Shown: positions 10,211 to 27,769 of the stretch, piece by piece
Numbering within the stretch: position 1 is the stretch's first letter
How the letters are laid out: each line of letters begins with the position of its first letter
Source: a virus
Length of the DNA: 30,675 nt
Virus record (IMG/VR): IMGVR_UViG_3300027896_000146
Span: 1 to 30,675 of that record
Direction: 5' to 3' (one strand)
Position numbers and translations under genes: made by a program
The notes under the pieces: model-generated
Told to the model about the DNA's origin: nothing
The model's input: only the letters and a program-made list of their open reading frames with translations
Database searches by the model: none

Positions 10211-10370
10211 TTATTTTGGAAAATTTAGGGGTCTATCTAAATTATGTTCTATAACATAATTATCATACGCTAAAGCCGCTTCAATTTCTGTATTAAAAGT
10301 TCCCACCCATATTTTTAGATGCTCATGCCAAAAAGAACTAACCCATTTGGCAATTCCTTTTGGTTTTTTT
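10211..10370 (-). pseudogene. Out-of-frame C-terminal AP2-like domain of the GIY-YIG endonuclease
   Basis: Reading on in the other frame from the homopolymer at 10364-10371 gives PKGIAKWVSSFWHEHLKIWV, then GTFNTEIEAALAYDNYVIEH and NLDRPLNFPK before a stop at 10211. This is the typical end of an AP2-like DNA-binding domain (W..., GTF.TE.EAA.AYD). One A fewer in the run of eight would fuse it to the upstream 203-aa frame. The break is a real frameshift, a sequencing error or translational slippage. Confidence 0.8.
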
Positions 10371-10949
10371 TGCAATGGATACTGAAAAATATTTTGATGA
10401 CGAATTTTTATGTTTCATTCCAAATGCCCCATTTTCTTTTCCAAATTTTCCATAATTATGGGCTTTTTCACCTTTTTGAGCGTCACTCATCAATTTTTTA
10501 GTTTTTTCTGATTTAGGTTTTCCATAATTATGATTTTTATTTCCCATTCTGGATTCGCTCATTCTCCGTAATGTTTCTTCGGGAAAATGCTTTCCATACC
10601 AGTATGCGTTTTCTCCAGATTTAGCGATGCTCATTTTTCTTTTCCATTCGTCAGTATGATGTAATCCTCTCATGGAACTATCGCCTCCCCACGAAAGATT
10701 ATATCCTCCCTCCGAGGTATGAGAATGCAGTTCTTTAATCCAGAATATTTCTCTTTCATCCAAATCGTCTATTGAACAATATTCTATAATATAGCGAGTA
10801 AAATTTTCTTCGCCATATACTTTAAAAGCATCTAAGAGAGCTTTACAACCTCGATGATAATACCACATTCTTTTTTCAGCGTCTTCCCCTTGTCCAACAT
10901 ATTTATGATGCGTTATATTATTTTCAATTACATAAATTCCACTAGCCAT
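10338..10949 (-). CDS. GIY-YIG homing endonuclease with NUMOD3 repeats, frameshifted at the C-terminus
   Basis: 203 aa before a frame break. N-terminal nuclease domain has GIYVIENNITHHKYVGQG (GIY and YVG motifs), the catalytic Arg region (AEKRMWYYHRG), and conserved Glu in DLDEREIFWIKEL. It continues into four helix-capping NUMOD3 DNA-binding motifs (GLHHTDEWKRKMS, GKHFPEETLRRMSE, GKPKSEKTKKLM, GKFGKENGAFGMKH) and the start of an AP2-like domain (SSKYFSVSIAKK) where the frame is lost at a run of eight A. It makes site-specific DNA breaks that drive copying of its own locus. SD AAAAGGA; own promoter at 11060-11088. No intron surrounds it, so it is free-standing. Confidence 0.88.
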   Translation of the reverse strand: MASGIYVIENNITHHKYVGQGEDAEKRMWYYHRGCKALLDAFKVYGEENFTRYIIEYCSIDDLDEREIFWIKELHSHTSEGGYNLSWGGDSSMRGLHHTDEWKRKMSIAKSGENAYWYGKHFPEETLRRMSESRMGNKNHNYGKPKSEKTKKLMSDAQKGEKAHNYGKFGKENGAFGMKHKNSSSKYFSVSIAKKTKRNCQMG

Positions 10950-12115: not shown

Positions 12116-12366
12116 CGTTTTTTGTTATCTGTAAGGCTTTTTATCCTTACATTCTTATGATTCTTATTCTCATAAGACCAGCGTACATTTTCATCTTATA
12201 AATAAGATGGAGGATACTCTTGGAGACATTATATTTGTTCAGTCTCTACGCGTTACACCGCTTCTTGGCCTTTCGCTATCCAAAAAGTTTGGCTCGGTAT
12301 TTTCGTTTCAGAATTCACCGATTTTACCCTCTCCACTTATAATATCACTATTGTAAGGGGCAATTA
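12116..12366 (-). ncRNA. Group I intron 2 of the major capsid gene
   Basis: About 251 nt, no ORF. Core pairings seen in the RNA: P3 GAGGGUA/UAUCCUC, P4 UCGGU/ACCGA, P6 GCC/GGU plus an 8-bp extension (CUUUUUGG/CCAAGAAG), P7 GCGUA/UACGC, P7.1 GAGAC/GUCUC, P8 CAUCUU/AAGAUG, P9 UCUUAUGA/UCAUAAGA, P9.1 GUAAGG/CCUUAC. The extra P7.1 suggests an IA-like subgroup. The 3' end is the G at 12116 (phase 0). The 5' splice site is less sure: ends after UUU (12367 side, used here), GAU or GGC all keep frame, but none gives an ideal P1. Confidence 0.9.
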
Positions 12367-12894
12367 AATAAATCGCCGTCATCCGGTAAGACATATCTTA
12401 AGGCTCTTGCAGTTCCAGCGAGAATGGGTTTTAACCCACCATTCCACGCTTGCACTCTCTGGGCTAAAGCAATCATGCTGTCTTGTGTGAAACCAGCAAC
12501 CTTTGTCCAAGAATAAGTAGCACCACTAACAGTATTTAAAGCGGCCATGGCGGCAGCGAATGCAGTATATGCATCACGAGCCATCTGTGCTTCAATCGAT
12601 TTTACTGCTTTGGCCGTAAAATCAGCAAGAGACTCTTTACCAGCAAGAACCTTATATAAAGCAACCTGAACAGTAATCTGATGAGCAACAGGTACAATAG
12701 TCACAGTCGTTTCAAACTGCTTGTGAATTTCTGAAGACTTCTGAGCACGTCCGCCCTGTGAAATAACAAACAGATCACGAGGCTTAATATGGAATGCAAA
12801 ACTATCCCCGAAACCACCGTTAGAAATAGCAGTATAAAGTCCGATATCATCAATCAAAGCATCGGGTAGAATCATATCAATCATGGCAGAAACA
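12366..12894 (-). CDS. Major capsid protein, exon 2
   Basis: Middle ~176 residues of the capsid protein. Reads VSAMIDMILPDALIDDIGLY, FAFHIKPRDLFVISQGGRAQ, TVTIVPVAHQITVQVALYKV and a long Ala-rich helix (AQMARDAYTAFAAAMAALN), consistent with the E-loop, spine helix and P domain of an HK97-fold capsid protein. It is bounded by introns at both ends: an apparent start (MIDMIL) at 12884 and an apparent end (NCPLQ) at 12348 are artefacts of reading into the introns. The exact 3' end may be 12366, 12372 or 12375. Confidence 0.85.
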
Positions 12895-13144
12895 CAAATT
12901 GTTACCTATAGGGCTTTTTATCCCTATACTCTTATGATTTCTATTCTCATAAGTTCAGCATATATATTCATCTCTTTTGAGATGGGAAACGCTCTTGGAA
13001 GTATTTTATTTATTCAACTTCTATGCGTTACGCTGTCTTTTAGCCTTTCGTAATCTAAAAGATTAGCTCGGTATTAGCCATTTCAGCTTTCACCGAATTC
13101 GTTTCCTTCAAATACAATATCACTATTGTAAGGGGCAATTTCTT
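12895..13144 (-). ncRNA. Group I intron 1 of the major capsid gene
   Basis: 250 nt, no ORF. Pairings: P2 ACAAUA/UAUUGU (GUGA loop), P3 GGAAACG (13100-13106) with CGUUUCC (12985-12991), P4 UCGGU/ACCGA, P5 AGC/GCU, P6 GCU/AGC plus UCUUUUAG/CUAAAAGA, P7 GCAUA (13022-13026) with UAUGC (12958-12962), P7.1 GAAGU/ACUUC, P8 CAUCUC/GAGAUG, P9 CUUAUGA/UCAUAAG, P9.1 UAGGG/CCCUA. Exon ends in GCGGU with U pairing the G of IGS GCC; the intron ends in AACAAUUUG. Splicing yields TTT GCG GT|T GTT TCT, an uninterrupted frame. Confidence 0.93.
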
Positions 13145-13437
13145 ACCGCAAAAGTAGCCCATGATACCATTGGATTCATAGCCCATTGTTCGACAGGAAT
13201 GGCAGCATCAAAATTTACACCAGAAAGACGACCAATCTCTGCCTTCAGAGCCTTATTCATCATATCTTCTTTTTCAGAGAACGTCAGTAATTCACCTTTA
13301 GAATTGCGCTCCTGATATTCTCGTTTTACCTTACCGGTTTTGGTGAAATCCAGATAATGTCTCCAATAATCAACAAACATCTTATAAGGACTCAAATCGG
13401 TAGCGAAGCTTAGAACATTAGACGGAATATTAATCAT
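13145..13437 (-). CDS. Major capsid protein, exon 1
   Basis: N-terminal ~97 residues of the main shell protein: MINIPSNVLSFATDLSPYKM ... GELLTFSEKEDMMNKALKAE ... NPMVSWATFAV. Unspliced, the frame runs a few codons into the intron and stops (VRNCPLQ). Joined to exon 2 and exon 3 it gives a protein of about 375-378 aa, a normal size for HK97-fold capsid proteins. Gene order (protease-scaffold, two decoration-like genes, then this) is the standard head order. SD GGAGG is 13 nt from the ATG, rather far. Confidence 0.85.
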
Positions 13438-14618: not shown

Positions 14619-17003
14619 CTATCCCCACAGGGAATCTCCAGTTTTCTTTTCAATCGTGTCCCAAGCCAAAGCAAATTTCTTTACTTCGTCTTTCTTATCG
14701 GACTTCTTAGTCTTCTTGACACAATCAAAAGCAGCGGCTTTCACTTCGTTCTTCCAGCCATCCAGAGTTTCCAACGAGAACTTCTTCAGGTCTTCCATAA
14801 GAATTTTCTCTTTTTCTTCCGGCAATTCGACAGCAGCCTTAATCTCTTCCATGGTCTTGCTTACTTCGTAAGAGAATTTGCTGGCTTCTACATCTGCCTT
14901 AAATTTGCGAAGAGCCTCATTCTCAGCCATGTATGCCTTATTGTCATCTGCCATCTTGGACATTTTTCTAGCCATTTTGGACATTTTCTTATAGACAACC
15001 CCGATGGCTTTTGAGAAACGGGCATCGCCCTCTTCCTCATCGAATTTACGAGCGAATTTCTTGGCATACTTTCCAGCCTTGGCTTCCTCGTCATCATCAT
15101 CGTCATCTTCGTCCTCAAACTTAGCGCCTTCTTCGGCGTCCAAGAGAGCCATGAGTTTGGATGCTTTTACATCAGGAAGGCACTCGAACATTTTTGCAAA
15201 TTTCTTTGCGTCTTCATCATCGTCGTCATCATCCATCTTGGCTTCTTTTACATCACCCTCTTTTTTGGCCTCAGAGGGGGGTTCAGTTTTTTCTTCTTGA
15301 GGCGAACCCTCTTTGCCTTTCTTTTCATCTTCAGCCATTCTAGCCTTGGCAGCCTCTTCCTCAGCCATTTTTGCTTTGGCGGCTTCCTCTTCCTCAAATT
15401 TCAGTTTTTCTTTATCGCCCATTGGCTTTTTATCCTCCTTCTGTTCAATTTCTTCGGCGTCACCGAATATAGCCATTTCTTCTTTTTCGTTTAAACCGAG
15501 TTTTTCGTATAAACCATTAACTTTACTTACAACCCCGCTTTCACCTTGAGCCTTAGCCCGTTGCAAAGCGGAGGACAAACCATATCTATTGTAGACAGCC
15601 TTTCCACCAGAAATACTCATAATAGGATAGTGCAGGCTAGAACTTGGATGATCTTCCCATCCCTCATCAACTTTAGCATAAACATCATGCACTAAACTGG
15701 AATAGTTCTTGGCATTGAGAACTTTATGCATAAGAGCCGTTTTGTCTGTGTTTCCCCATGGAGACGTACTCATAGCATCTTTGCTCTTATCTACCTCGAT
15801 AGATTCGCCTTTTCCCCAATCACTCTTATCAGCAAATTCTTCATCTGACATGGATGCTTTTTCGACCCATTTGCCATCTTTCACAACATGGGTCTTTTTG
15901 AACGAGGCGATTGCCATGGGCCAACCATTCGCTTTCGGATTTTCTTTAATAATAGCATCAGCCTGTGCAGCAATAGCATTAGCCTGTGCCAGACTTGGCT
16001 CCGGATCAATCCCCTTTATGGCCGGATTTACATCTTTCATTGATTTATATGGCATGGTTATTAAATCACCTCCTTGCTTATCAAAGTACGCCCTCTTACG
16101 ATTATCAATCTCATCGAGTTTTTCCGATAAATTTTTGCTCCACGAATGTCCCGATTTTCCACCCCAAAGAGAGTGACCAATATATCCATTACTAGGCGGA
16201 GTAGTTTTCTGAAAATCATCTGGGTTTTTATTAGCGTGAAACTTAGCGGCCTGTCTGACTTTTTCAGGAGTAGCAACATCGTTCTTTAGCATGTGATGTG
16301 CAAATGCTAAACTTACCGAGTTTCCACCGCGTTTATAACAAGAATATAATGCCAATCCTTCTTCACAATTTTCTTTTACAGATTGTGGAATGGAAAAACT
16401 TAATTCTTCATATTTATGACCAAATTGTTTTTCAAAATCTGCTTCGAATAACTTTCGCTCTTCTTTGGCAAATTGAAGAACATCCATATGCGCCCCTTCG
16501 ATTGCCGGAGTTATATCATCACCAAGGATCGTAATTCCCTCATAAACAAAATCAGTTAACTCCGTATCTCCATTTTCCATTTCCTGTGTAGCATAAACGC
16601 TGAGTTCTACGGACACCGACTTCGATTTATCCCGCTCGAAAATTTCCATAAGTTTGGATTCATACCTTTTCCATATGAAAATTGGCGAGGCACATAGCAT
16701 AATACGTCCATCTGGCAAAGATTTTTTAGTTAACTTGCTTGCTTCCGGGATAACGCCCACAGGTTGCTCCATTGGATCATGACTTCCGGCATCATCGGTT
16801 CTTTTATCGTAACGAAACAAAATGGGTTTGTTATATATAGTTGATGCTGTTTTTTCTAATGTGTCATCGGAAATATAAAGGGTATGTTTGTTACGCCCCG
16901 ATGAAAAAAAGTCTACCGAAAGAACCGCAAAACTGCTTTCTATATTTTGCTCCTCTGGGGATATCTTTTCTATTTTATCTACCTCAAAATTAATTCGTTC
17001 CAA
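14619..17003 (-). CDS. Prohead protease - scaffold fusion protein
   Basis: 794 aa. N-terminal ~180 residues look like a prohead serine protease: a beta-rich domain with candidate catalytic His in DAGSHDPMEQPVG and Ser in KSKSVSVELSVYA. A middle region has AHHMLKNDVATPEKVRQ, then PPSNGYIGHSLWGGKSGHSW, a motif known from XkdF-like phage proteins. Residues ~530 onward are acidic/basic coiled coil with runs of Asp and EEEEAAKAKMAEEEAAKARM, typical of a scaffold. The protease would cut the scaffold part and capsid proteins during maturation. TTG start with AAGGAGG 9 nt upstream; that SD is inside the last codons of the upstream endonuclease gene. Confidence 0.78.
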   Translation of the reverse strand: MERINFEVDKIEKISPEEQNIESSFAVLSVDFFSSGRNKHTLYISDDTLEKTASTIYNKPILFRYDKRTDDAGSHDPMEQPVGVIPEASKLTKKSLPDGRIMLCASPIFIWKRYESKLMEIFERDKSKSVSVELSVYATQEMENGDTELTDFVYEGITILGDDITPAIEGAHMDVLQFAKEERKLFEADFEKQFGHKYEELSFSIPQSVKENCEEGLALYSCYKRGGNSVSLAFAHHMLKNDVATPEKVRQAAKFHANKNPDDFQKTTPPSNGYIGHSLWGGKSGHSWSKNLSEKLDEIDNRKRAYFDKQGGDLITMPYKSMKDVNPAIKGIDPEPSLAQANAIAAQADAIIKENPKANGWPMAIASFKKTHVVKDGKWVEKASMSDEEFADKSDWGKGESIEVDKSKDAMSTSPWGNTDKTALMHKVLNAKNYSSLVHDVYAKVDEGWEDHPSSSLHYPIMSISGGKAVYNRYGLSSALQRAKAQGESGVVSKVNGLYEKLGLNEKEEMAIFGDAEEIEQKEDKKPMGDKEKLKFEEEEAAKAKMAEEEAAKARMAEDEKKGKEGSPQEEKTEPPSEAKKEGDVKEAKMDDDDDDEDAKKFAKMFECLPDVKASKLMALLDAEEGAKFEDEDDDDDDEEAKAGKYAKKFARKFDEEEGDARFSKAIGVVYKKMSKMARKMSKMADDNKAYMAENEALRKFKADVEASKFSYEVSKTMEEIKAAVELPEEKEKILMEDLKKFSLETLDGWKNEVKAAAFDCVKKTKKSDKKDEVKKFALAWDTIEKKTGDSLWG

Positions 17004-17009
17004 TTATAT

Positions 17010-18146
17010 TTACCTCCTTTCTAAGAGAGGAGATAATTCACTCTCTAAAATTTGTTGCACATTTTTAAAATTTTTACCATCATAATAAATTCTAATTAAT
17101 TGAATATTATTGCTTTTACAATATTCGTTTTTTAGAAAATCATGATATTTTATTAATTCGTATTTATTTATAGAATCTTGTTCAGACATACCATTAAATT
17201 TAACAGGTTTTCTATGCCCAATTCCATCTATCTCTATAAGACAATATAAATTGTTTTTATTAAATATGGCGAAATCAAATCTTAATGGAACCCCAAAATT
17301 ACTTAATAAATCATTAAAATAATATTGAGATTTATATTCAATATTGTTTTTAAGAAGAAAATTAGATGTATATTTTTCACCCTTTGAACTACAACAACAG
17401 GGACATCCAGACCCCATAAATAAAACATGAGGACTAGAAAACCAAATATAGCCATCATTCAAACATTGAATTTTGATTTTTGTATAATGATCGACATATT
17501 CTCCCAATATTTTAATGTCTGGATGAATTCTAAACAATTTGTCTTTAAAAACAGGAGTTGTATATCTTTCAACATTTTTACATCTAGGGCATCCAGAACC
17601 TCTTAACAAATTAGCGGGAATTGCGTTCCATTCATATCCGTCTATTAAACATCGGACTTTTATTTTATTATGCGTTCCAAATAAACTTTCTATTATTTCA
17701 ATATTTGGATTAATATTAAAGAGTTCTTTAACAAATTCTTCGGAAGATTTCATTTTACGATTTTTATATATTGCACATTTTGGACAACCTTCTCCGTCCA
17801 ATAATGTATATGCCAAAGGCGACCATTCATAATCATCTATTTCACATTTACATGATATTCTACTTGCAGAATTTTTATAGGTTCCTATAATTTTAATATT
17901 TGGATTTATTAAAAACATCTTATCTAAAAATTCTTGATGGGTAAACCTTCTAGTTGGGGAACAAAAATTACATCTGTTTCCATTATATACAAAGTTTCCC
18001 GGTGTTGTACTCCAAATATTTCCACATATGGTATGAAAAAGGTTTAACTTTTTATCCATGCGATAAAAATTATCAAGAACATTATATTCTCCATTTCCAT
18101 ATTCATTAACATAATTTTTAAACTTTTCCGTATCCCATTTAATCAT
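17010..18146 (-). CDS. Zinc-ribbon-repeat EDxHD (Vsr-like) homing endonuclease
   Basis: 378 aa from the ATG at 18146 (MIKWDTEKF), preferred to an ATG 21 nt earlier that directly abuts an AGAGAG. Four repeats of the form ...C.I/LDGYEW...LL.G.GCPKC (ends CNFC, CPKC, CPRC, CPCC) probably bind zinc and DNA. The C-terminal nuclease-like domain has FDFAIFNKNNLYCLIEIDG, a following His (GIGHRKP) and LIRIYYD, the pattern of the I-Bth0305I/Vsr-like fold. It is a free-standing mobile gene between the 71-aa gene and the protease-scaffold gene. Its last codons GAA AGG AGG TAA supply the downstream SD. Confidence 0.78.
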   Translation of the reverse strand: MIKWDTEKFKNYVNEYGNGEYNVLDNFYRMDKKLNLFHTICGNIWSTTPGNFVYNGNRCNFCSPTRRFTHQEFLDKMFLINPNIKIIGTYKNSASRISCKCEIDDYEWSPLAYTLLDGEGCPKCAIYKNRKMKSSEEFVKELFNINPNIEIIESLFGTHNKIKVRCLIDGYEWNAIPANLLRGSGCPRCKNVERYTTPVFKDKLFRIHPDIKILGEYVDHYTKIKIQCLNDGYIWFSSPHVLFMGSGCPCCCSSKGEKYTSNFLLKNNIEYKSQYYFNDLLSNFGVPLRFDFAIFNKNNLYCLIEIDGIGHRKPVKFNGMSEQDSINKYELIKYHDFLKNEYCKSNNIQLIRIYYDGKNFKNVQQILESELSPLLERR

Positions 18147-18184
18147 TTTATTTTCTCTCTTTCGCATCTCTCTTTTTGTCTAAG

Positions 18185-18323: not shown

Positions 18324-18539
18324 TTATTTAAAACATTCAGGTATTTTCACAAGTGGCTTCAAATAAAACGGCAAATTTTGCAATACTAATTTTAACGCAT
18401 CGGTGCACGAAAACAAATATTGTTTTCCTTGTATTGATAAAACCGGTATTTTATGTGTAATTAAATATTTGCCAATTATTTCATTTGTCCGAAACAACTT
18501 GTTTTGTGGTAATACTTCAGGATTAAGTATATAGGACAT
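18324..18539 (-). CDS. Small protein coupled to the ferritin gene
   Basis: 71 aa, no recognised family. Basic, with SYILNPEVLPQNKLFRTNEI and a C-terminal LVLQNLPFYLKPLVKIPECF. Its ATG overlaps the ferritin stop (TAATG) and the SD AAGGAGG lies in the last ferritin codons, so translation should be coupled. Whether it acts with the ferritin (for example as a targeting or encapsulation partner) cannot be told from sequence. Confidence 0.65.
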   Translation of the reverse strand: MSYILNPEVLPQNKLFRTNEIIGKYLITHKIPVLSIQGKQYLFSCTDALKLVLQNLPFYLKPLVKIPECFK

Positions 18540-19018
18540 TAATCCTCCTTAAAACTGGCATCAAACAATACCAAATCCTTGGTCATCTTTATATTATCAG
18601 CAAATGTAGTAGCCATGTCTTCTTCTTCAACTTGTTCTACCAACATTTCCTGTAAGAACCCTAAATCAATAAAAGACTTTTCTGAAAGAGCAAGTTCATA
18701 CAACGCCTCGATACTTTCAGTAGTTTGTTCCTCAGCCGAAACGAAAGTATCAGCGATATTTTCTATTGTTTCTACCGGAAGATTGGGGGTATCAACTTCA
18801 CCTAAATTTACTTTTCCGCCTGTTCTACTATTAACATATTCTACAAATTTGTCGCCATGTTCTCGCTCTTGCATAGATTGTTCTCGAAATATTTTTGCCA
18901 AGTTTAACAAACGCATATCCTCAAAACGAGATTCTATTGATTTATAAACTAGACTATTAAAATATTCTTTTAAGATTTGTTCATTAAGAGCATCATTTAA
19001 TTCTTGTGACAGTTTCAA
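18539..19018 (-). CDS. Ferritin (non-heme, FtnA-like)
   Basis: 159 aa from a TTG start with GGAAGGAGG 9 nt upstream; the longer ATG at 19072 lies inside a hairpin and has no usable SD. The four-helix ferritin pattern is clear. By alignment from memory with E. coli FtnA the ferroxidase ligands are kept: Glu18 (LKEYFNSLVY), Glu51 and His54 (QEREHGDKF), Glu97 (SAEEQTTES), Gln129 and Glu132 (LVEQVEEED). Family proteins oxidise Fe(II) and store iron in a 24-mer shell. Here it sits among head genes, coupled to a 71-aa gene. Slightly shorter than typical 165-170 aa ferritins. Confidence 0.88.
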   Translation of the reverse strand: MKLSQELNDALNEQILKEYFNSLVYKSIESRFEDMRLLNLAKIFREQSMQEREHGDKFVEYVNSRTGGKVNLGEVDTPNLPVETIENIADTFVSAEEQTTESIEALYELALSEKSFIDLGFLQEMLVEQVEEEDMATTFADNIKMTKDLVLFDASFKED

Positions 19019-19050
19019 ATTTTTATACCTCCTTCCGGAGAATTTATTAT

Positions 19051-19077
19051 AGGAGATGAGTTTAATTCCCATCTCCT
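19051..19077 (-). terminator. Hairpin between beta-helix and ferritin genes
   Basis: Perfect 8-bp stem AGGAGATG/CATCTCCT with an 11-nt loop, followed in the RNA by AUAAUAAAUUC. A weak terminator or processing hairpin after the beta-helix gene. Confidence 0.5.
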
Positions 19078-19120
19078 ATTTTGGAAATGAATTAATTATT
19101 TTCGAAGATATTACTAAATA

Positions 19121-20101
19121 CTAAGTACCGAGAAGTTGATGTGCACCAGCAGTATTGTTAATTACCAAGTTGCCCATAGCACGATTAGATGCATTGTTAG
19201 TAAGAGCAAGAGCAGTCGTACCAGCCGAAATAAAGTTGCCAGCATACCAGGCATTGGAAGCCAAATTGGAATCCGAGCAGGTATCTTGAATACCATATGT
19301 TCCACCATAAACAACATTATTCTTAAATACGGTTTGATCGCATAGATACGCCGATACCACAATACCAGTAGTAGAACCATAGAAAACACTATCCTCAACC
19401 AAGCATTGATTGAAATTTCCACCACCAGAACCACCCGTACCAACGGTCAATGCAGTAACAGGATAGGTTGTATCGCCACCAAAAAGACAATGGCTAATAT
19501 TGATGCCACCACCAGTAGCAATATTTAATCCACCAGTAGTGCGGTTCATGAAAGCACAGTTTACAAAATCAGAGCGGAAACAAATAGCCAGATTCATACC
19601 ATAAGCCGCGCCAGTACCAGTAAATTGCATATTATAAACACCTAAACCACGCACACCGGTTGAGGAAACGGTATCTGTAGTTGAAGAACCAGTTACAGAA
19701 GCAATACCAGTGCCATTACCACGAGGGTCAGCCCCAATACCCACAATATCGCAATAGTTCGGAAGAGCAGTTAGGGCGGTATAGGCAGTACTTGTACCCT
19801 GCACATAGATGATGCCCCTCGTGTAGTTGCTACCCGTTGTAGCAGCAGCATAAGCGGTTCGAACTGCTTCCCAAGCTGTCACAGCAGTACTAATCTGATC
19901 CATGGGAGTATCCCAGGTTAGACCGTCGTTTGAAGAAGACCCTCGAATATTGTCCACATATAAAATAACCCCAGGATATCCTGAGCCCGGATATCCACCC
20001 GCAGCGGCAGCATAAACCATGTCACCCAATTTGGCTCGCTGACAATAGACATTTTGGTTATTAAGTCCAAGCCTTTTTTGTTTAGTTGTATAAGCCGACA
20101 T
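19121..20101 (-). CDS. Right-handed beta-helix virion protein
   Basis: 326 aa from the ATG at 20101, which has AAAGGAG 7 nt upstream; a longer frame to 20128 has no SD. After a short N-terminus the protein has an opening typical of phage pectate-lyase-like folds (ILYVDNIRGSSSNDGLTWDT PMDQI), then turn-like repeats (CDIVGIGADPRGNG, GVYNMQFTG, FVNCAFMNRTTGG, ISHCLFGGDT, VEDSVFYGST, VFKNNVVYGGTYG). It is a surface virion protein, possibly a head fibre or glycan-binding/degrading protein given its place among head genes. No catalytic residues are identified. Confidence 0.78.
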   Translation of the reverse strand: MSAYTTKQKRLGLNNQNVYCQRAKLGDMVYAAAAGGYPGSGYPGVILYVDNIRGSSSNDGLTWDTPMDQISTAVTAWEAVRTAYAAATTGSNYTRGIIYVQGTSTAYTALTALPNYCDIVGIGADPRGNGTGIASVTGSSTTDTVSSTGVRGLGVYNMQFTGTGAAYGMNLAICFRSDFVNCAFMNRTTGGLNIATGGGINISHCLFGGDTTYPVTALTVGTGGSGGGNFNQCLVEDSVFYGSTTGIVVSAYLCDQTVFKNNVVYGGTYGIQDTCSDSNLASNAWYAGNFISAGTTALALTNNASNRAMGNLVINNTAGAHQLLGT

Positions 20102-20162
20102 TTTTAAATCTCCTTTTCTATTGACCATGTATTTTTATGAGGAAACATTCCCCAAGATACCG

Positions 20163-20227: not shown

Positions 20228-21385
20228 TTACAAGTAGAATTTTTCTTTAATAATATTTTCAATATTATCATATTCCCAGTAGGGTATACGAATTAAATTT
20301 ATCCCCTTTTCTTGACAATATTTATCCTTTACCGCATCTCTAATTTTTATTAATTCAAATTCTTTCTCACATTCTTCTTTTGTTCTATTATTATAATATT
20401 TTACTTCGTGATGGTATTTTCCATCGTACTCTATTACCGCATTAAAATCTGGAAGATAGAAATCGTATGAGAGTTCGTTTATATATTTACAATCCCCAAA
20501 TTTCCATTGCGGAAAATAAGAAATACCAGCATTCATCAATAACGTATCAATTTTTAATTCTCCACAAGAATAATTGCATTTTTGACAACCAGATATTTGG
20601 TGAACCCTATTATTAATGGGTGCTTTCCAAACGCATCCGCATTTTGTACAAGTCCAGAAAACTTTTCGTTTGCTTCCAGGTCTAACTTGGCTTGGCAAGA
20701 GAGAATGATTTTCATTATAATTCCATTCTCTCGCTAATTCTGGAAACAAATATTCTAAAGAATTTGTTTTTCCAACATTGTGTCCATATGGGGAACAATA
20801 TGGACAACCACTGTTTACGCGAGTTCTATGATCTATGGATGTCTTCCATTTTTCACCACAATTTTTGCATAACCACCATACTTTTGAATGAGAACTAAAA
20901 AGATATTCACTCGGATTTTTAATATTATTTTCATAATCCCATTCATTGCATAGTTTTGGAAACATCGCTAATAAATTATTTTTATTTCCGATTCTATGTC
21001 CAGAACAAAATGGACATCTATCTCCATTATAAATACTTTGCCATTGAGCATCAAAAATTTCATCACAAACGTTACATTTAAAAATTAATTTTCCCTGGCG
21101 TTTATAAATTCCATTGACATATTGTAAATTTATGTTATTTAACTTTAACCACAAAATTATATTTTGTATCGTAAATGGATTATCAACATGAAATGGTCTT
21201 ATATTGCTTTTCTCTGTTTGTAAATGATGAGAAATTCCGCTCCAATTAAGCCGATATAAATATCCATCAAAGTCTTTAATTGTTAAATCGTGATATGCAC
21301 TTATATATTCAGTATCTAATAATATATATTTCCCGCTTTTTTCTATTGCATCTTTTACTTCATCGAATGTAAGTTTTTTAGGCAT
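20228..21385 (-). CDS. DUF4379-type zinc-ribbon EDxHD (Vsr-like) homing endonuclease
   Basis: 385 aa. N-terminal region is shared with the 22476-23876 protein (DGYLYRLNWSG, NPFTIQNIILWLKLNN, YVNGIY). Three zinc ribbons follow (CNVC..CPFC, CKNC..CPYC, CTKC..CQKC) with the FPKLCNEWDYENN / FPELAREWNYNEN spacing of probable zinc-ribbon DUF4379. The C-terminal nuclease domain reads LSYDFYLPDFNAVIEYDG, KYHHEVKYY and NLIRIPYWEY, matching the E.D..H Vsr-like pattern. It has its own consensus promoter, structured leader and terminator: a self-contained mobile cassette. SD AAGGAG. Confidence 0.8.
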   Translation of the reverse strand: MPKKLTFDEVKDAIEKSGKYILLDTEYISAYHDLTIKDFDGYLYRLNWSGISHHLQTEKSNIRPFHVDNPFTIQNIILWLKLNNINLQYVNGIYKRQGKLIFKCNVCDEIFDAQWQSIYNGDRCPFCSGHRIGNKNNLLAMFPKLCNEWDYENNIKNPSEYLFSSHSKVWWLCKNCGEKWKTSIDHRTRVNSGCPYCSPYGHNVGKTNSLEYLFPELAREWNYNENHSLLPSQVRPGSKRKVFWTCTKCGCVWKAPINNRVHQISGCQKCNYSCGELKIDTLLMNAGISYFPQWKFGDCKYINELSYDFYLPDFNAVIEYDGKYHHEVKYYNNRTKEECEKEFELIKIRDAVKDKYCQEKGINLIRIPYWEYDNIENIIKEKFYL

Positions 21386-22475: not shown

Positions 22476-23876
22476 TTAGATGTGAAGATAAGAAGTGAGG
22501 ATTTCGGGAATTTTATCGAAATCCCAATAAGGAATTTTTAATAAGGGAATGTTATGAGAAAGACAATATTGTTCTTTAATGCCATCACGAATTTGAAGTT
22601 CTTTGAATTGATCTTCCGCCCATTCTTTGCCCTTGCCACCAAAATCTACTGGAAAATAATGCTGCTCTCCTTGAACTTCACACATCCATAATTTATCTAA
22701 ATAAAATATTCCGAAATCAAATTGTAATGAGTTTGAACGTTTACAATCTGGAAAACTATATTGGGGATTAAAAGAAATCATATGCTCAGAAAGAAAATTC
22801 TTAACGATTTTTTCTCCTTCGGATGACGCGCAATGAGAACATCCGCGCCCCATAGTTCTAGTTTCTATAACACTATTCCATCTATTTCCGCATTTAGAAC
22901 AAATCCAAAAAGCCCTTCTATTTGAACCAGGAGTCAATCTATAAGGGTCTATCCCAATATTTTTTTCAAAATCCCATTCTTTCATTAATTCTGGATAAAG
23001 TTCTCCTAGAATACCAGATTCTTTTAATTGATTACTTATGAAACAATTGGGGCAATTAATCGAACTTTTTTTCTTCTTTGTTCTATTATAAAGTTTTGAC
23101 GTCCATTCATATCCACATATATGACACTTCCAATAATAACTCAAATTAGATTTAGGATAACAATCAAAAGGAGTTTTATCATTTTTTTCATAGTCCCAAT
23201 CTAACGCTATTTCTGGATATAAAAAACCAAAAGATTTTTCTTTAAGAACATTGCTGTGGTGAGGGGAAACAACATGAGCACAATAAGAACATCCTGTTCC
23301 TGCTTGCATATAAGACCAACTTGTATTCCAAGTAGAATCACAAATATCACATTTCAAGACTATGGATTTTTCTATAGAATCAACAAATTTTCCATTCAAA
23401 AACTTATATGGCTTGTTATTGTTTTTTATCCACAAAATAAGATTCTCTATATTATAAGGATTAGATTTATCTACAATGGCGGTTTTTGAATTTCTCTTAT
23501 TATTCTTTTGAACATATGAATAACTTAAAAAATATTTATAGCCATTTAAATCAGATAAAGATATTTTTTCGTCCACATTTTTAAATATATGATCTTCATC
23601 TAGTAAAAAATATCCTAAAGATTTTAGTAATTCCCCCATATTCATTAAATGATCTTTTGCTAATCCATATTGATTCGCAAAGGAGCAACTTTTACAAAAA
23701 TGACTGCTGTATAAAAAATTATAATAATCTCCTTTTCGAAGATGTCCGCATAAACATTTTACCACAACTGTTTTCTTATTATTGCCATCAATATAACCCT
23801 CAACTAATTCACACCCTAATTTCTCAATCTCTTTTCTCATAACTTCTACTGTAAATTTTCCGACCATTCGAGACAT
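22476..23876 (-). CDS. Long DUF4379-type zinc-ribbon EDxHD (Vsr-like) homing endonuclease
   Basis: 466 aa from the ATG at 23876, well spaced from AAAGGAGG; another ATG two codons earlier is too close. Paralogue of the 20228-21385 protein but with one more zinc ribbon. Ribbons: CLCG..CKSC, CDIC..CSYC, CHIC..CPNC, CSKC..CSHC, with the FLYPEIALDWDYEKN and LYPELMKEWDFEKN spacing segments. C-terminal nuclease domain: LQFDFGIFYLDKLWMCEVQG EQHYF and PLLKIPYWDFD, fitting the E..H pattern. Free-standing between portal and a virion gene, with its own promoter (23986-24014) and leader. Confidence 0.8.
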   Translation of the reverse strand: MSRMVGKFTVEVMRKEIEKLGCELVEGYIDGNNKKTVVVKCLCGHLRKGDYYNFLYSSHFCKSCSFANQYGLAKDHLMNMGELLKSLGYFLLDEDHIFKNVDEKISLSDLNGYKYFLSYSYVQKNNKRNSKTAIVDKSNPYNIENLILWIKNNNKPYKFLNGKFVDSIEKSIVLKCDICDSTWNTSWSYMQAGTGCSYCAHVVSPHHSNVLKEKSFGFLYPEIALDWDYEKNDKTPFDCYPKSNLSYYWKCHICGYEWTSKLYNRTKKKKSSINCPNCFISNQLKESGILGELYPELMKEWDFEKNIGIDPYRLTPGSNRRAFWICSKCGNRWNSVIETRTMGRGCSHCASSEGEKIVKNFLSEHMISFNPQYSFPDCKRSNSLQFDFGIFYLDKLWMCEVQGEQHYFPVDFGGKGKEWAEDQFKELQIRDGIKEQYCLSHNIPLLKIPYWDFDKIPEILTSYLHI

Positions 23877-23918
23877 TTTCATCCTCCTTTAGAATGATCC
23901 CTTATTTGTTATCTAAAA

Positions 23919-24017: not shown

Positions 24018-25023
24018 TTAAATCTTTCCACCTCTTCCAACATTTTCTCCATCGCCTCTTGTTTGAGCACCTGCGTCGGTCAATTGACTATCCGATTTCT
24101 TAGGAGCACCTGCTCTCTGACTTCCGCTACCCATTTGAGAACTCATAATAATTGGGGTCAATTTTCCAACAAAATCATCCGCTTTTCCCTCTGCCATCAT
24201 TTGCCTGAAAGCATGGGGTTCAACTCCAATCGCTGCCGCCACTTTATCGGGAAGAATAATCCCCATGTTCATAAGAGGCGTTAATCTTTCCAATCTCTGG
24301 GTTCTATTTGTGAAAAAATTTGTTCCTTCTAAGACTGCCTTAAAGTGATATTTCTTAGTTATTTTACTTAATTGATATTCAAGAAAATTATTAAAAACAG
24401 GATAAACGGCTTCCATCAACTGTTCATCAGTAGCCAAACTCAATTGGCTTTCCATGACATTGGGCCTAGCTCCAGATGTGAAGATAAGATTGCTGTTTAC
24501 TCCAGATGAAGCTACGGAGTTAAGAAGATATTGATTATAAATATCTTCTCCTGGTTCAAAAGAAATTCCTTTAACTCCTTGAAGAGGGGATGCGGCGACT
24601 TTTATTGCTTCACCGATTGCACTCTTCATAAGAGTCAAGAACTTTCCAAGCAAGTCAGGAGAAATGGATATGGCGTCTTTAAGCGTTGTCTTTGATTGAC
24701 TAAGTAAGGCCACTTCACCGAAAACGATCTTGGATGCCGCGGCAATTGATTTATTTTTTTGAAGCAATCTCATTAAAGGTTGTAGCAAAAGATCAGAAAA
24801 TAATCCGGTGAAATAGGGGATTCTTGCTCCGATTTCTGGGGTCAATTTAAAACATTGGCCTAATTGAACGGGGATCGGCTGAAAATAAACCCAGCCTATT
24901 TTTCCACGTTCTTCTGGTGAAATATGAGGAATATATTCTCGCTTCGCTTCAAACATATTGTTCACAAAATCTGCAAATTCGTCTGGAAATAATTTTAAGT
25001 CCGTTCCGGGTTGAAGAAAATAT
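24018..25023 (-). CDS. Portal protein, exon 2
   Basis: C-terminal 335 residues of the portal (with one split codon). Begins YFLQPGTDLKLFPDEFADFV, then ISPEERGKIGWVYFQPIPV, a long helical wing/stem (KDAISISPDLLGKFLTLMKS), SFEPGEDIYNQYLLNSVASS and an Ala/Gly-rich tail. The internal ATG (NNMFEAKREY) has no SD and should not be taken as a start: the frame is open back to the intron end at 25024. With exon 1 the protein is 541 aa, right for a dodecameric portal ring at the packaging vertex. It directly follows large terminase in gene order. Confidence 0.85.
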
Positions 25024-25271
25024 CAAATTGTTATCTATGATGTTTTTTATCATCATATTCTTACAATTTCATTTTTTGTAAGTTCAGCATATATTTTCGT
25101 CTTATAAAGACGGAGGGCACTCGTGGGAATATTATATTTATTCAATTCCTATGCGTTACGTTACTTCCCAACCTTGCGAAATCTGGAAAGTTAACACGAT
25201 GTTGGCGTTTCAGCGTTCATCGTCTTTGTCCTCTGCAAAAATAGTATCACTACTATAATGGGCAATTTCTT
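25024..25271 (-). ncRNA. Group I intron in the portal gene
   Basis: 248 nt, no ORF. Pairings in the RNA: P2 AUAGUA/UACUAU, P3 GAGGACA/UGCCCUC (one mismatch), P4 ACGAU/AUCGU, P6 GUU/AAC plus ACUUUCCA/UGGGAAGU, P7 GCAUA/UAUGC, P7.1 GGAAU/AUUCC, P8 CGUCUU/AAGACG, P9 CUUACAA/UUGUAAG, P9.1 AUGAUG/CAUCAU. The exon ends in AUGGU, whose GGU pairs GCC with a terminal U-G; the intron ends in AACAAUUUG. Splicing gives GAC ATG GT|A TAT TTT, in frame. Same family as the two capsid introns. Confidence 0.93.
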
Positions 25272-25891
25272 ACCATGTCAAAATCATACATTAATCCGTA
25301 GTCGAATCTGCCGGTGATGCGACAATAATAGTTATCAAGTTCTTGAAGAATATATTTATCCCCACCTTCACTTGGGCCACGAAAAACAAAGAAAAAAGCG
25401 TCATTTCTTAGCATCTGTTTTACAGCGGTATTAAACTCTTGTTTAACATTAAATTTATCAAAGAAATCATAAACCTTATCTCGCTCTTTTTGATAAGCAG
25501 GAGTTTTAAAATCTTTTTCATCTGCGTTTGTACAATGTATTGCATAATCCCAGCTTAAAAGATTACCTAAATAACTCATCAATCTCTTATAGGGCATACT
25601 TGTCAATTCTAGATTCTCAGAAAAGGTTCTTAGAAAATCTTCGCTGGTTTTTGGATTTTGCAATGCTGCGTTGAGAGCAGTTTCATCGGCAGCTCGTGGA
25701 TTATAGGATATGTCTTTAAGTCTTTGGTTCATTAAATCTGGGGTATATACAGAATTTCCAAAACCATTCCCAAACATTCCGCGTTCTAGAGTTCTAGCAA
25801 ATTCAACCATGTCCCAAATCATTTTTTCTGGAATTTCTTCTGGTAATTTTTCTTCTACTTTTTCTATGCTTTTATCATCATTATCTGCCAT
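25272..25891 (-). CDS. Portal protein, exon 1
   Basis: N-terminal 206 residues: acidic start (MADNDDKSIEKVEEK), PEKMIWDMVEFARTLERGMF, PYKRLMSYLGNLLSWDYAIH, then RNDAFFFVFRGPSEGGDKYI and ITGRFDYGLMYDFDMV before the intron. The order of motifs (clip/wing start, R.DAFFF, YC.ITGR) fits phage portal proteins. Unspliced reading ends RNCPL inside the intron. SD GGAGG is 16 nt before the ATG, farther than usual; no better in-frame start exists because of an upstream TAG. Confidence 0.85.
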
Positions 25892-25921: not shown

Positions 25922-27769
25922 TTATATAAAGGATGTCATTTTTCTAAGAACATCCCAATCAGATTCTTTATTATCTTTTTCCGCTTTTATTTCTGGATCA
26001 AAATATTTATCAATAATATAATTCATATCACTGACACTTGTAAATCTATCTTTATGTGAACCAGGAGTTTCGGTCAATCTAATACTCGCTCCTTTGTGTT
26101 CCATATTTAAATTCAAGCATTCTCCGATAAGCAAATTTGTCTGTACGTGAGGATTCAATAAAAATGCTTTTAACTCTCCTTCATCATCAGTAAGAAGTTC
26201 TTTATGATTTTTCAACAAGAATTCCTCGGCTTCGGGATCGGGAATAAGAAAATCCCACATCTTTTTCTGTAAACTGCCCCTGAAAGCAATGGCGATAGCT
26301 GAGTTTAATTCAAGAGTTGCAACTACAGGAAATATCACATGTTTTGGGTCTGCACCAAGAGTTCTTTTTATCAGATCATCTTTGGAGTCTTGCGGAATAT
26401 CCAAGTCGTAGTCTTCCACTATGGTAAACGGAGGATATTCAACCCCTCTTTCTTCATCAGGAGTTACCTGAGTAAGAGGGTCATACACTCCTATGCCCAT
26501 ACTCTTAATATCCATATCCATGAAATCACAATCCAAATCATAAAACACTTGTTTTACGCGTTTTGCTTGGGAAACCTGATTTTCACCCTTGAAACTTTCT
26601 CCATATATTAATTGCCGAGTATATCCTACTCCCATCATCGGAATAAGTCTCGCAACCCAAATCGAGGTTATATCATTCTTCTTATTAGCTCTAGCAGCAA
26701 TATCTATGGAAAGAATTCTAATTTCCCCATCTGTTTTAGGAGTATTATATGGATTTTTTTTAGCAAGTTGTTGATAATCTTTTGCCGGAACATAAGTGTC
26801 TGGATACTGTGGATAATATGCTCTTTTCATTTTTCTTGGAAAGAACGATGCACGATAAAAGGATTTTCCACTTTGCCCCGAAGGAATATTCAGGTATTCA
26901 AGTTGCTTGGTAACATCGTCCAAGTCCTGCATTTCATTTCGAAGCATTTGCTTTGTCTTAATACCATGCTTTAGACAAATCAGATAATCAAGTGCCATAA
27001 AATTGGATGTCGCGTCTCCTGCCAACATTCTCTTAATTGTTGTCTTAACATATTGAAACCAAGATTCGCTTTTATATCCCGCGGAGGTTATATATGATAT
27101 ACGACCTTCTTCTTCGTACAACGGGTCATTAGAATATGGTACAATTTGTCTGTAAGGCGGATTGCGTGTTTCCATCATTGGGATCATAACAGATTCAATA
27201 ATCTCTTTAGAAACAAAACGACTTTCATCAATAATTAAATACGAACATCGCCCACCTCTCGCTGAATCTGCGCTTGGAACAACCTTAATAGAGCTACCAT
27301 TAAAGAATGAGGCGTAGTTCCCATTGGCGTTACAGACAATTGTATCCAACTCCCTGTTCACCATCGGATGCGTATCTCGAATGGATTGTAGTTTATCCGA
27401 AAGAAGTTCTGATGCTTGTTTCATTGTTTTAGCGCATATCTTCACTTTGATACCCGGCCATAACGTACACAACGTTAATGCCCATACACCCGTTATCCAA
27501 GTTTTTGCCGATGCTCTACTCGCAACAACATACGCAAGATCACTTCTTTGAAGCATCCAGATCATCAATTTTTGATAGGCGAATAACTTAATCTGAAAGT
27601 AGTCTTCAATAAATCTCACGGGATTACGACGATAGAATGTGATCCATTTTTTAAATTGTTGCCTCTTTTCGAAAGTTATTTCCTCTCGGATTGTCATATC
27701 CTTGCGCTGTTTAAAAATTCCCTGCGTTTGAATATTTTGCCCTTGGAAAAAAGAAGGCTTGATTGGCAT
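25922..27769 (-). CDS. terL: Large terminase subunit
   Basis: 615 aa. N-terminal ATPase: Q-motif region (FAYQKLMIWMLQRS), Walker A-like VVASRASAKTWI near residue 85, Walker B with catalytic Glu in SYLIIDESRF near residue 178. C-terminal RNase H-like nuclease: first Asp strand in ILSIDIAARANKKNDIT, later acidic sites in DMDIKSMGIGVYD and a C-terminal DRFTSVSDMNYIID. It cuts concatemeric DNA and pumps it into the prohead through the portal. Length is normal. The ATG overlaps the TAA of the gene before it with SD AAGGAGG, so the two are coupled. Confidence 0.95.
   Translation of the reverse strand: MPIKPSFFQGQNIQTQGIFKQRKDMTIREEITFEKRQQFKKWITFYRRNPVRFIEDYFQIKLFAYQKLMIWMLQRSDLAYVVASRASAKTWITGVWALTLCTLWPGIKVKICAKTMKQASELLSDKLQSIRDTHPMVNRELDTIVCNANGNYASFFNGSSIKVVPSADSARGGRCSYLIIDESRFVSKEIIESVMIPMMETRNPPYRQIVPYSNDPLYEEEGRISYITSAGYKSESWFQYVKTTIKRMLAGDATSNFMALDYLICLKHGIKTKQMLRNEMQDLDDVTKQLEYLNIPSGQSGKSFYRASFFPRKMKRAYYPQYPDTYVPAKDYQQLAKKNPYNTPKTDGEIRILSIDIAARANKKNDITSIWVARLIPMMGVGYTRQLIYGESFKGENQVSQAKRVKQVFYDLDCDFMDMDIKSMGIGVYDPLTQVTPDEERGVEYPPFTIVEDYDLDIPQDSKDDLIKRTLGADPKHVIFPVVATLELNSAIAIAFRGSLQKKMWDFLIPDPEAEEFLLKNHKELLTDDEGELKAFLLNPHVQTNLLIGECLNLNMEHKGASIRLTETPGSHKDRFTSVSDMNYIIDKYFDPEIKAEKDNKESDWDVLRKMTSFI

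Follow-up and report, generated by a model that had tools for sequence, protein, structure and literature searches.

Why should a phage carry a ferritin gene among the genes that build its head? This question is raised by a stretch of 30,675 bases, the whole of IMG/VR virus record IMGVR_UViG_3300027896_000146 from an uncultured phage, which we refer to as the window. An original prediction, made from these letters alone, had placed an intact ferritin on the strand of the structural genes. Ferritin-superfamily genes are already known from phages, namely Dps, Mn-catalase and single ferritin annotations, and a protein of a Vi01-like phage has been named ferritin by Phyre2 (PMC10892097).

Results

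An FtnA-like ferritin with a predicted ferroxidase centre

The 159-residue product of the gene at 18539-19018 (minus strand) matched the Pfam family Ferritin (PF00210) with 89.9 bits (E 1.9e-25, cut-off 24.5), as well as phrog_16594, a PHROG family without functional annotation (E 1.4e-9). A phmmer search against the PDB identified the T. maritima ferritin as the nearest solved relative (E 1e-16). The AlphaFold (AF2) model, which was based on an alignment of 13 phage sequences, had a pLDDT of 92.6 and a pTM of 0.87 and is predicted to comprise the four ferritin helices plus a short fifth one (149-154); the ferritins of A. fulgidus and T. maritima ranked first for this model in Foldseek (TM 0.91). 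These results agree with the intact ferritin and the strand that had been predicted, and the structure prediction that had been proposed as a check returned a four-helix ferritin rather than some other fold. Foldseek also gave weak partial matches of the model to the BFVD entries A0A6J7WIS1, A0A6J7XDU5 and A0A6J7WPK9, all named 'Prohead protease' (TMq 0.56-0.63), a hint from predicted structures that Dps-like domains may be fused to head proteases.

Mapping on E. coli FtnA assigned the di-iron ligands E17, Y24, E50, H53, E94, Q127 and E130 of FtnA to E18, Y25, E51, H54, E96, Q129 and E132 of the window protein, respectively. Glu18, Glu51, His54, Gln129 and Glu132 of the original prediction were thus recovered, but Glu97 has to be replaced by Glu96, because the invariant alignment column is the first residue of the pair. 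At the third-iron positions (C site) of FtnA, E126 and E129 are kept as E128 and E131, but E49 is replaced by Q50; with Gln at position 49, the window protein lacks the complete FtnA C site (E49, E126, E129). This site is typical of FtnA and does not define ferritins in general. The intact intrasubunit FtnA ligands set the protein apart from Dps, the ferroxidase site of which (His/Asp/Glu) lies between subunits. The conserved C-terminal FD/WD motif of the phage ferritins aligned with the LYFIDKEL region of FtnA. Judged from sequence and model, the window gene encodes an intact FtnA-like ferritin of the ferroxidase type.

Translation signals and gene order in the head operon

The ferritin ORF is uninterrupted and initiates at a TTG codon at 19018. 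The strong Shine-Dalgarno sequence that had been foreseen is present as GGAGG at 19028-19032 (minus strand), 9 nt 5' of the TTG, and comparison of upstream sequences revealed that most ferritins of the relatives are also preceded by a GGAGG motif. The ferritin stop codon overlaps the ATG of the next ORF (TAATG at 18539), which encodes 71 residues (18324-18539, minus strand). The coupled downstream gene of the original prediction therefore stands as an overlap, but it is not specific to ferritin, since its homologues also occur in phages without one. Directly 5' of the Shine-Dalgarno sequence, between the upstream gene and the ferritin start, a hairpin with a 12-bp stem is predicted at 19049-19079 (minus strand; fold -19.1 kcal/mol, z -2.96). 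It is not a typical terminator because a T-run is absent, and sequence comparison revealed no evident counterpart upstream of other phage ferritins. A scan for promoters and terminators performed no better than on shuffles. Upstream of the TTG we also noted 'MGIKLIS', identical to the ferritin start of the related records L087 and L040. A recombination scar was considered and dropped, as this apparent relic coincides with the arms of the hairpin and is probably due to chance.

Further upstream on the minus strand lie the large terminase (25922-27769; Pfam/PHROG), which was used as the query for finding relatives, the portal (24018-25891; phrog_2739), encoded by two ORFs (25891-25253 and 24965-24018) that both matched a portal HMM, and a probable beta-helix, virion-like protein (19121-20128; Pfam NosD, E 3e-5). 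Downstream on the same strand, the small ORF is followed by an ORF with a DUF4379 zinc-finger match in Pfam (17010-18167) and by a candidate prohead protease/scaffold (14619-17003; phrog_3313, E 7e-24). As phrog_3313 has no functional annotation, the latter was named from its gene position and from homologues in the relatives. The neighbours originally named, a beta-helix virion protein and a protease-scaffold region, are accordingly found as a probable beta-helix protein and a downstream protease/scaffold candidate, with the ORF at 18167-17010 between the small ORF and the latter. In the relatives, proteins encoded upstream of ferritin start with 'KINKMNRAxQDVxLGTLL', and the N-terminus of the beta-helix protein, KQKRLGLNNQNVYCQRAKLGDMV, is similar to this. 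Such an N-terminus was shared by proteins of L002, L024, L034, L063 and L087 and the window protein at 19121-20128, the C-terminal parts of which differ, as if one anchor bore interchangeable virion domains.

Two matches to Intron_gpI on the minus strand (12161-12381 and 12941-13154; 31.5 and 30 bits, E 8e-6 and 2e-5, below the gathering score) fall in the gaps between the ORFs 13437-13123, 12884-12348 and 12043-11801. These ORFs resemble the exons of a split major capsid gene, and their frames continue into 'NCPLQ' where 5' splice sites are presumed. The portal gap (25252-24966, minus strand) is a similar split, its first piece ending in 'NCPL', and it matched no Rfam family. Four minus-strand ORFs among the head genes (17010-18167, 20228-21385, 22476-23882 and 10338-10949) resemble homing-endonuclease-like mobile genes; the first of these matches DUF4379/CapR zinc-finger models and the other three were judged by inspection only.

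A conserved slot in related phages

Relatives were fetched via the terminase, because the ferritin alone finds few. When 50 of these phage records were searched for PF00210, matches with E <= 0.01 were obtained in 21 records, 14 of which exceeded the curated cut-off. One match, in a 1281-aa frame of L119, was taken as chance. Among the remaining 20 matches, 19 were located between portal and protease/scaffold or, on contigs that stop short of the protease, behind the portal. The exception was L034, with about 7 kb of intervening other genes and a contig that lacks the protease. In L002, the ferritin of which is 59% identical to that of the window, the order is terminase, portal, a 118-aa protein, ferritin, a 66-aa ORF and protease/scaffold, and the common order of the slot is portal, virion-like protein, ferritin, an ORF of about 65 aa and protease/scaffold. 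This slot is constant across phages with widely diverged terminases. A search at the DNA level in phages found nothing.

Two forms of the slot protein

The ferroxidase-type proteins (class I) were compared in an alignment of 13 rows, consisting of the window, L002 and eleven more, in which the others are 26-59% identical to the window protein. None of the 13 rows deviates at E17, Y24, H53, E94, Q127 or E130 (FtnA numbering); E50 is present in 11 rows and replaced by Lys in the near-identical L095 and L096. As most other columns are variable, these invariant ligands point to strong selection on the ferroxidase centre. Purifying selection on class I was also evident from dN/dS values of 0.13 for L087/L040 and of about 0.23 for window/L002, the latter near saturation. 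Each of the 45 cellular rows has Glu at the C-site positions E49, E126 and E129, but class I has mixed residues there, and by alignment this site has decayed, Glu being lost in much of the clade. The C-terminal tail of class I extends 2-6 residues past the aligned Asp, as compared to 6-26 (median 15) in cellular ferritins. With the C site lost and the tail short, storage or cage properties may differ.

In the second class of slot proteins (class II), the ferroxidase ligands are lost save the aligned His. Their PF00210 scores are weak to just above the cut-off (26.4 bits for L113 and 25 bits for L115). A model based on six sequences had a pLDDT of 88.1, and its first Foldseek match was the T. 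maritima ferritin (TM 0.83/0.88, E 6.5e-5, probability 1.00); class II is thus predicted to keep the ferritin fold. The dN/dS ratio was about 0.17 for pairs without saturated synonymous sites, which indicates purifying selection. In the tree, class II formed one group (support 100/100). The two classes were not grouped as a single phage clade in the free tree, and such a clade was not rejected by the AU test (p 0.455). When a two-row profile of the window and L002 proteins was compared with five ligand-less proteins, the relationship was not recovered, so the relatedness of the two classes rests on the PF00210 scores of L113 and L115 and on the fold. Every cultured phage found with a slot protein had class II, namely Enterocloster phage PMBT24, the CB phages (CB473P1) and Thomasclavelia phages TR-TP1/2. 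Class II is a second form in the same slot, which is newly described here.

Among 47 scored loci with 38 different terminases, 16 had class I, 13 had class II and 18 had neither. On the terminase tree, these labels require at least 9 changes. This mixture indicates that the ferritin is optional and that the classes were exchanged, or repeatedly lost, in one slot. In SPbeta, Lysinibacillus LC76P1, Mammaliicoccus phi36 and Alicyclobacillus KKP_3916, the protease/scaffold directly follows the portal. Homologues of the small ORF precede the protease in the ferritin-less L048, L060, L063, L064, L065, L073 and L080, most of which also carry the protein that precedes ferritin elsewhere. The small ORF was therefore rejected as a dedicated ferritin partner, and the same applies to the upstream protein, as both occur without ferritin. 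Two contigs with a related terminase were binned as DPANN archaea (L125, Woesearchaeota MAG KatS3mg002, and L122, Pacearchaeota MAG UBA284), and L125 and L076 carry identical class I ferritins. An archaeal host seems less likely than mis-binning.

Origin of the phage ferritins

The 13 class I proteins formed one branch (support 100/99) against 43, and later 45 more varied, cellular ferritins. These were from Firmicutes, DPANN, Bacteroidota, Actinomycetota, haloarchaea, Thermotoga and E. coli; the sample was broad for Firmicutes and a DPANN phylum and thin for other phyla, and the tree is unrooted. The cellular row closest to the window was 2.7 substitutions per site distant. A search for the host donor, as originally suggested, yielded none, either with the phage profile in 299 + 194 genomes or among plasmid ferritins. 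The reason is that the phage ferritins form a separate old lineage; as far as sequences tell, the window ferritin belongs to this old, phage-only lineage. With thin sampling and an unrooted tree, the lineage may derive from an unsampled source, but not from a recent host gene. The recent host contaminant that the phylogeny might have exposed did not appear, and the gene is syntenic in unrelated contigs. Some sequences filed as phage, OR845001/OR850087 (L008), MT839617 (L009) and MT836766 (L184), appear to be host DNA, and their ferritins lie among cellular genes.

Discussion

We estimate at roughly 55% the probability that the window protein is an FtnA-type ferritin subunit of a phage-only lineage that oxidises Fe(II), its cellular or virion location being left aside. 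The ferritin gene would be one of the cistrons translated from the late head operon, and due to this position its product would accumulate during capsid building. By homology, the subunits may assemble into a cage, which, from what is known of ferritin biochemistry, would oxidise Fe(II) at the di-iron centre with O2 or H2O2 and hold the ferric product. The likely gain for the phage is that free iron and radicals would be kept low late in infection, during DNA packaging. A similar benefit has been suggested for the Dps and Mn-catalase of phages, which have been proposed to raise the oxidative tolerance of anaerobic gut hosts (PMC8008677). Judging by the hosts of related cultured phages, the host of the window phage is probably anaerobic. 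As the slot can also be ligand-less or empty (18 of 47 loci), iron oxidation is neither essential nor the only use of the slot, and the ligand-less fold in this slot means that iron chemistry cannot alone explain a ferritin there.

It is quite possible, if somewhat less probable, that the ferritin fold serves as a component of the head or as a factor in its assembly, packaged in or decorating the procapsid or portal region, where the ferroxidase form adds iron loading or DNA protection and the ligand-less form is structural only. Such a role would fit the fixed place between portal and protease/scaffold despite the divergence of the terminases, the alternation of two forms in one slot across the terminase tree, and the predicted fold and low dN/dS of the ligand-less form; as a lead only, the BFVD matches to parts of 'Prohead protease' proteins (E 0.04-0.14) point in the same direction. 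On the other hand, the ferritin is missing from the 18 loci mentioned above, including SPbeta and its kin, and is thus not needed to build such a head. Moreover, accessory genes inside structural operons are common in phages, and the strict retention of ligands in class I favours an enzyme. Enzymatic and virion or assembly roles are compatible, since a ferritin-fold head component could be catalytic in some phages. One may go further and regard the ferritin as an optional head building block of a broad phage group, the active and dead forms of which alternate and travel inside the virion or attached to it. Some particles would then be iron-loaded, comparable to ferritin-filled encapsulins. We consider this further reading rather doubtful.

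That the gene is a plain auxiliary gene of recent host origin, placed in the operon for expression, is very improbable. Ferritins are common in hosts, and phage Dps genes are known outside structural modules (PMC6669764), but the phage ferritins form one branch apart from the cellular ones, at the distance given above, and the slot is identical in all contigs but one. Host contamination of the assembly can practically be dismissed. Three database matches were indeed host DNA filed as phage, but the window ferritin is flanked on both sides by same-strand phage structural genes in an order that recurs in L002 and others, and both this synteny in unrelated contigs and the phage-only clade argue against contamination. 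The ferroxidase reading thus concerns a genuine phage gene, and an isolated annotation becomes a conserved system, with a phage-only lineage, one place in the head operon, and active and inactive forms exchanged between phages. In the literature that we searched, we found no description of an FtnA lineage that is specific to phages, has a fixed place in the head operon and comprises active and inactive forms. Since the cultured phages PMBT24, CB473P1 and TR-TP1 have the inactive form, ferritin in or around phage heads is now testable.

The window protein resembles the FtnA-type ferritins of cells (PF00210; T. maritima TM1128, A. fulgidus, E. coli FtnA) in its predicted four-helix fold (TM 0.91), A/B ligands and length, but the phage form is a separate clade with C-site glutamates that are not maintained, a shorter tail and a gene in the head operon. 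Two annotated phage proteins, ORF39 'ferritin' of Enterocloster phage PMBT24 (WDQ45549; PMC11035940) and gp13 'Ferritin domain-containing protein' of Thomasclavelia phage TR-TP1 (XPO98013), share its slot in the order portal, ferritin, small ORF, protease/scaffold, and a ferritin fold is predicted for their family. Unlike the window protein, both lack the ligands except for the aligned His, and their PF00210 scores are weak; the PMBT24 paper names ORF39 ferritin once, under 'other functions' (PMC11035940). The Dps and Mn-catalase of gut phages (Benler 2021, PMC8008677) also represent the ferritin superfamily on phages with a proposed role in iron or oxidative stress, but are not of the FtnA type, and the superfamily member Dps of Lactobacillus phages (PMC6669764) is encoded near replication genes, unlike the head-module gene of the window. 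As in encapsulins, where an HK97-fold shell holds ferritin-like cargo (EncFtn/Flp; PMC8346489), a ferritin-superfamily gene lies here beside capsid-type genes; in contrast to encapsulins, the shell genes of the window belong to a phage packaging/head module and the ferritin is FtnA-type by sequence, not EncFtn. Packaging of the phage ferritin, if it occurs, would be relevant to the iron that virions carry and to the way in which the HK97-type shells of encapsulins acquired their ferritin content.
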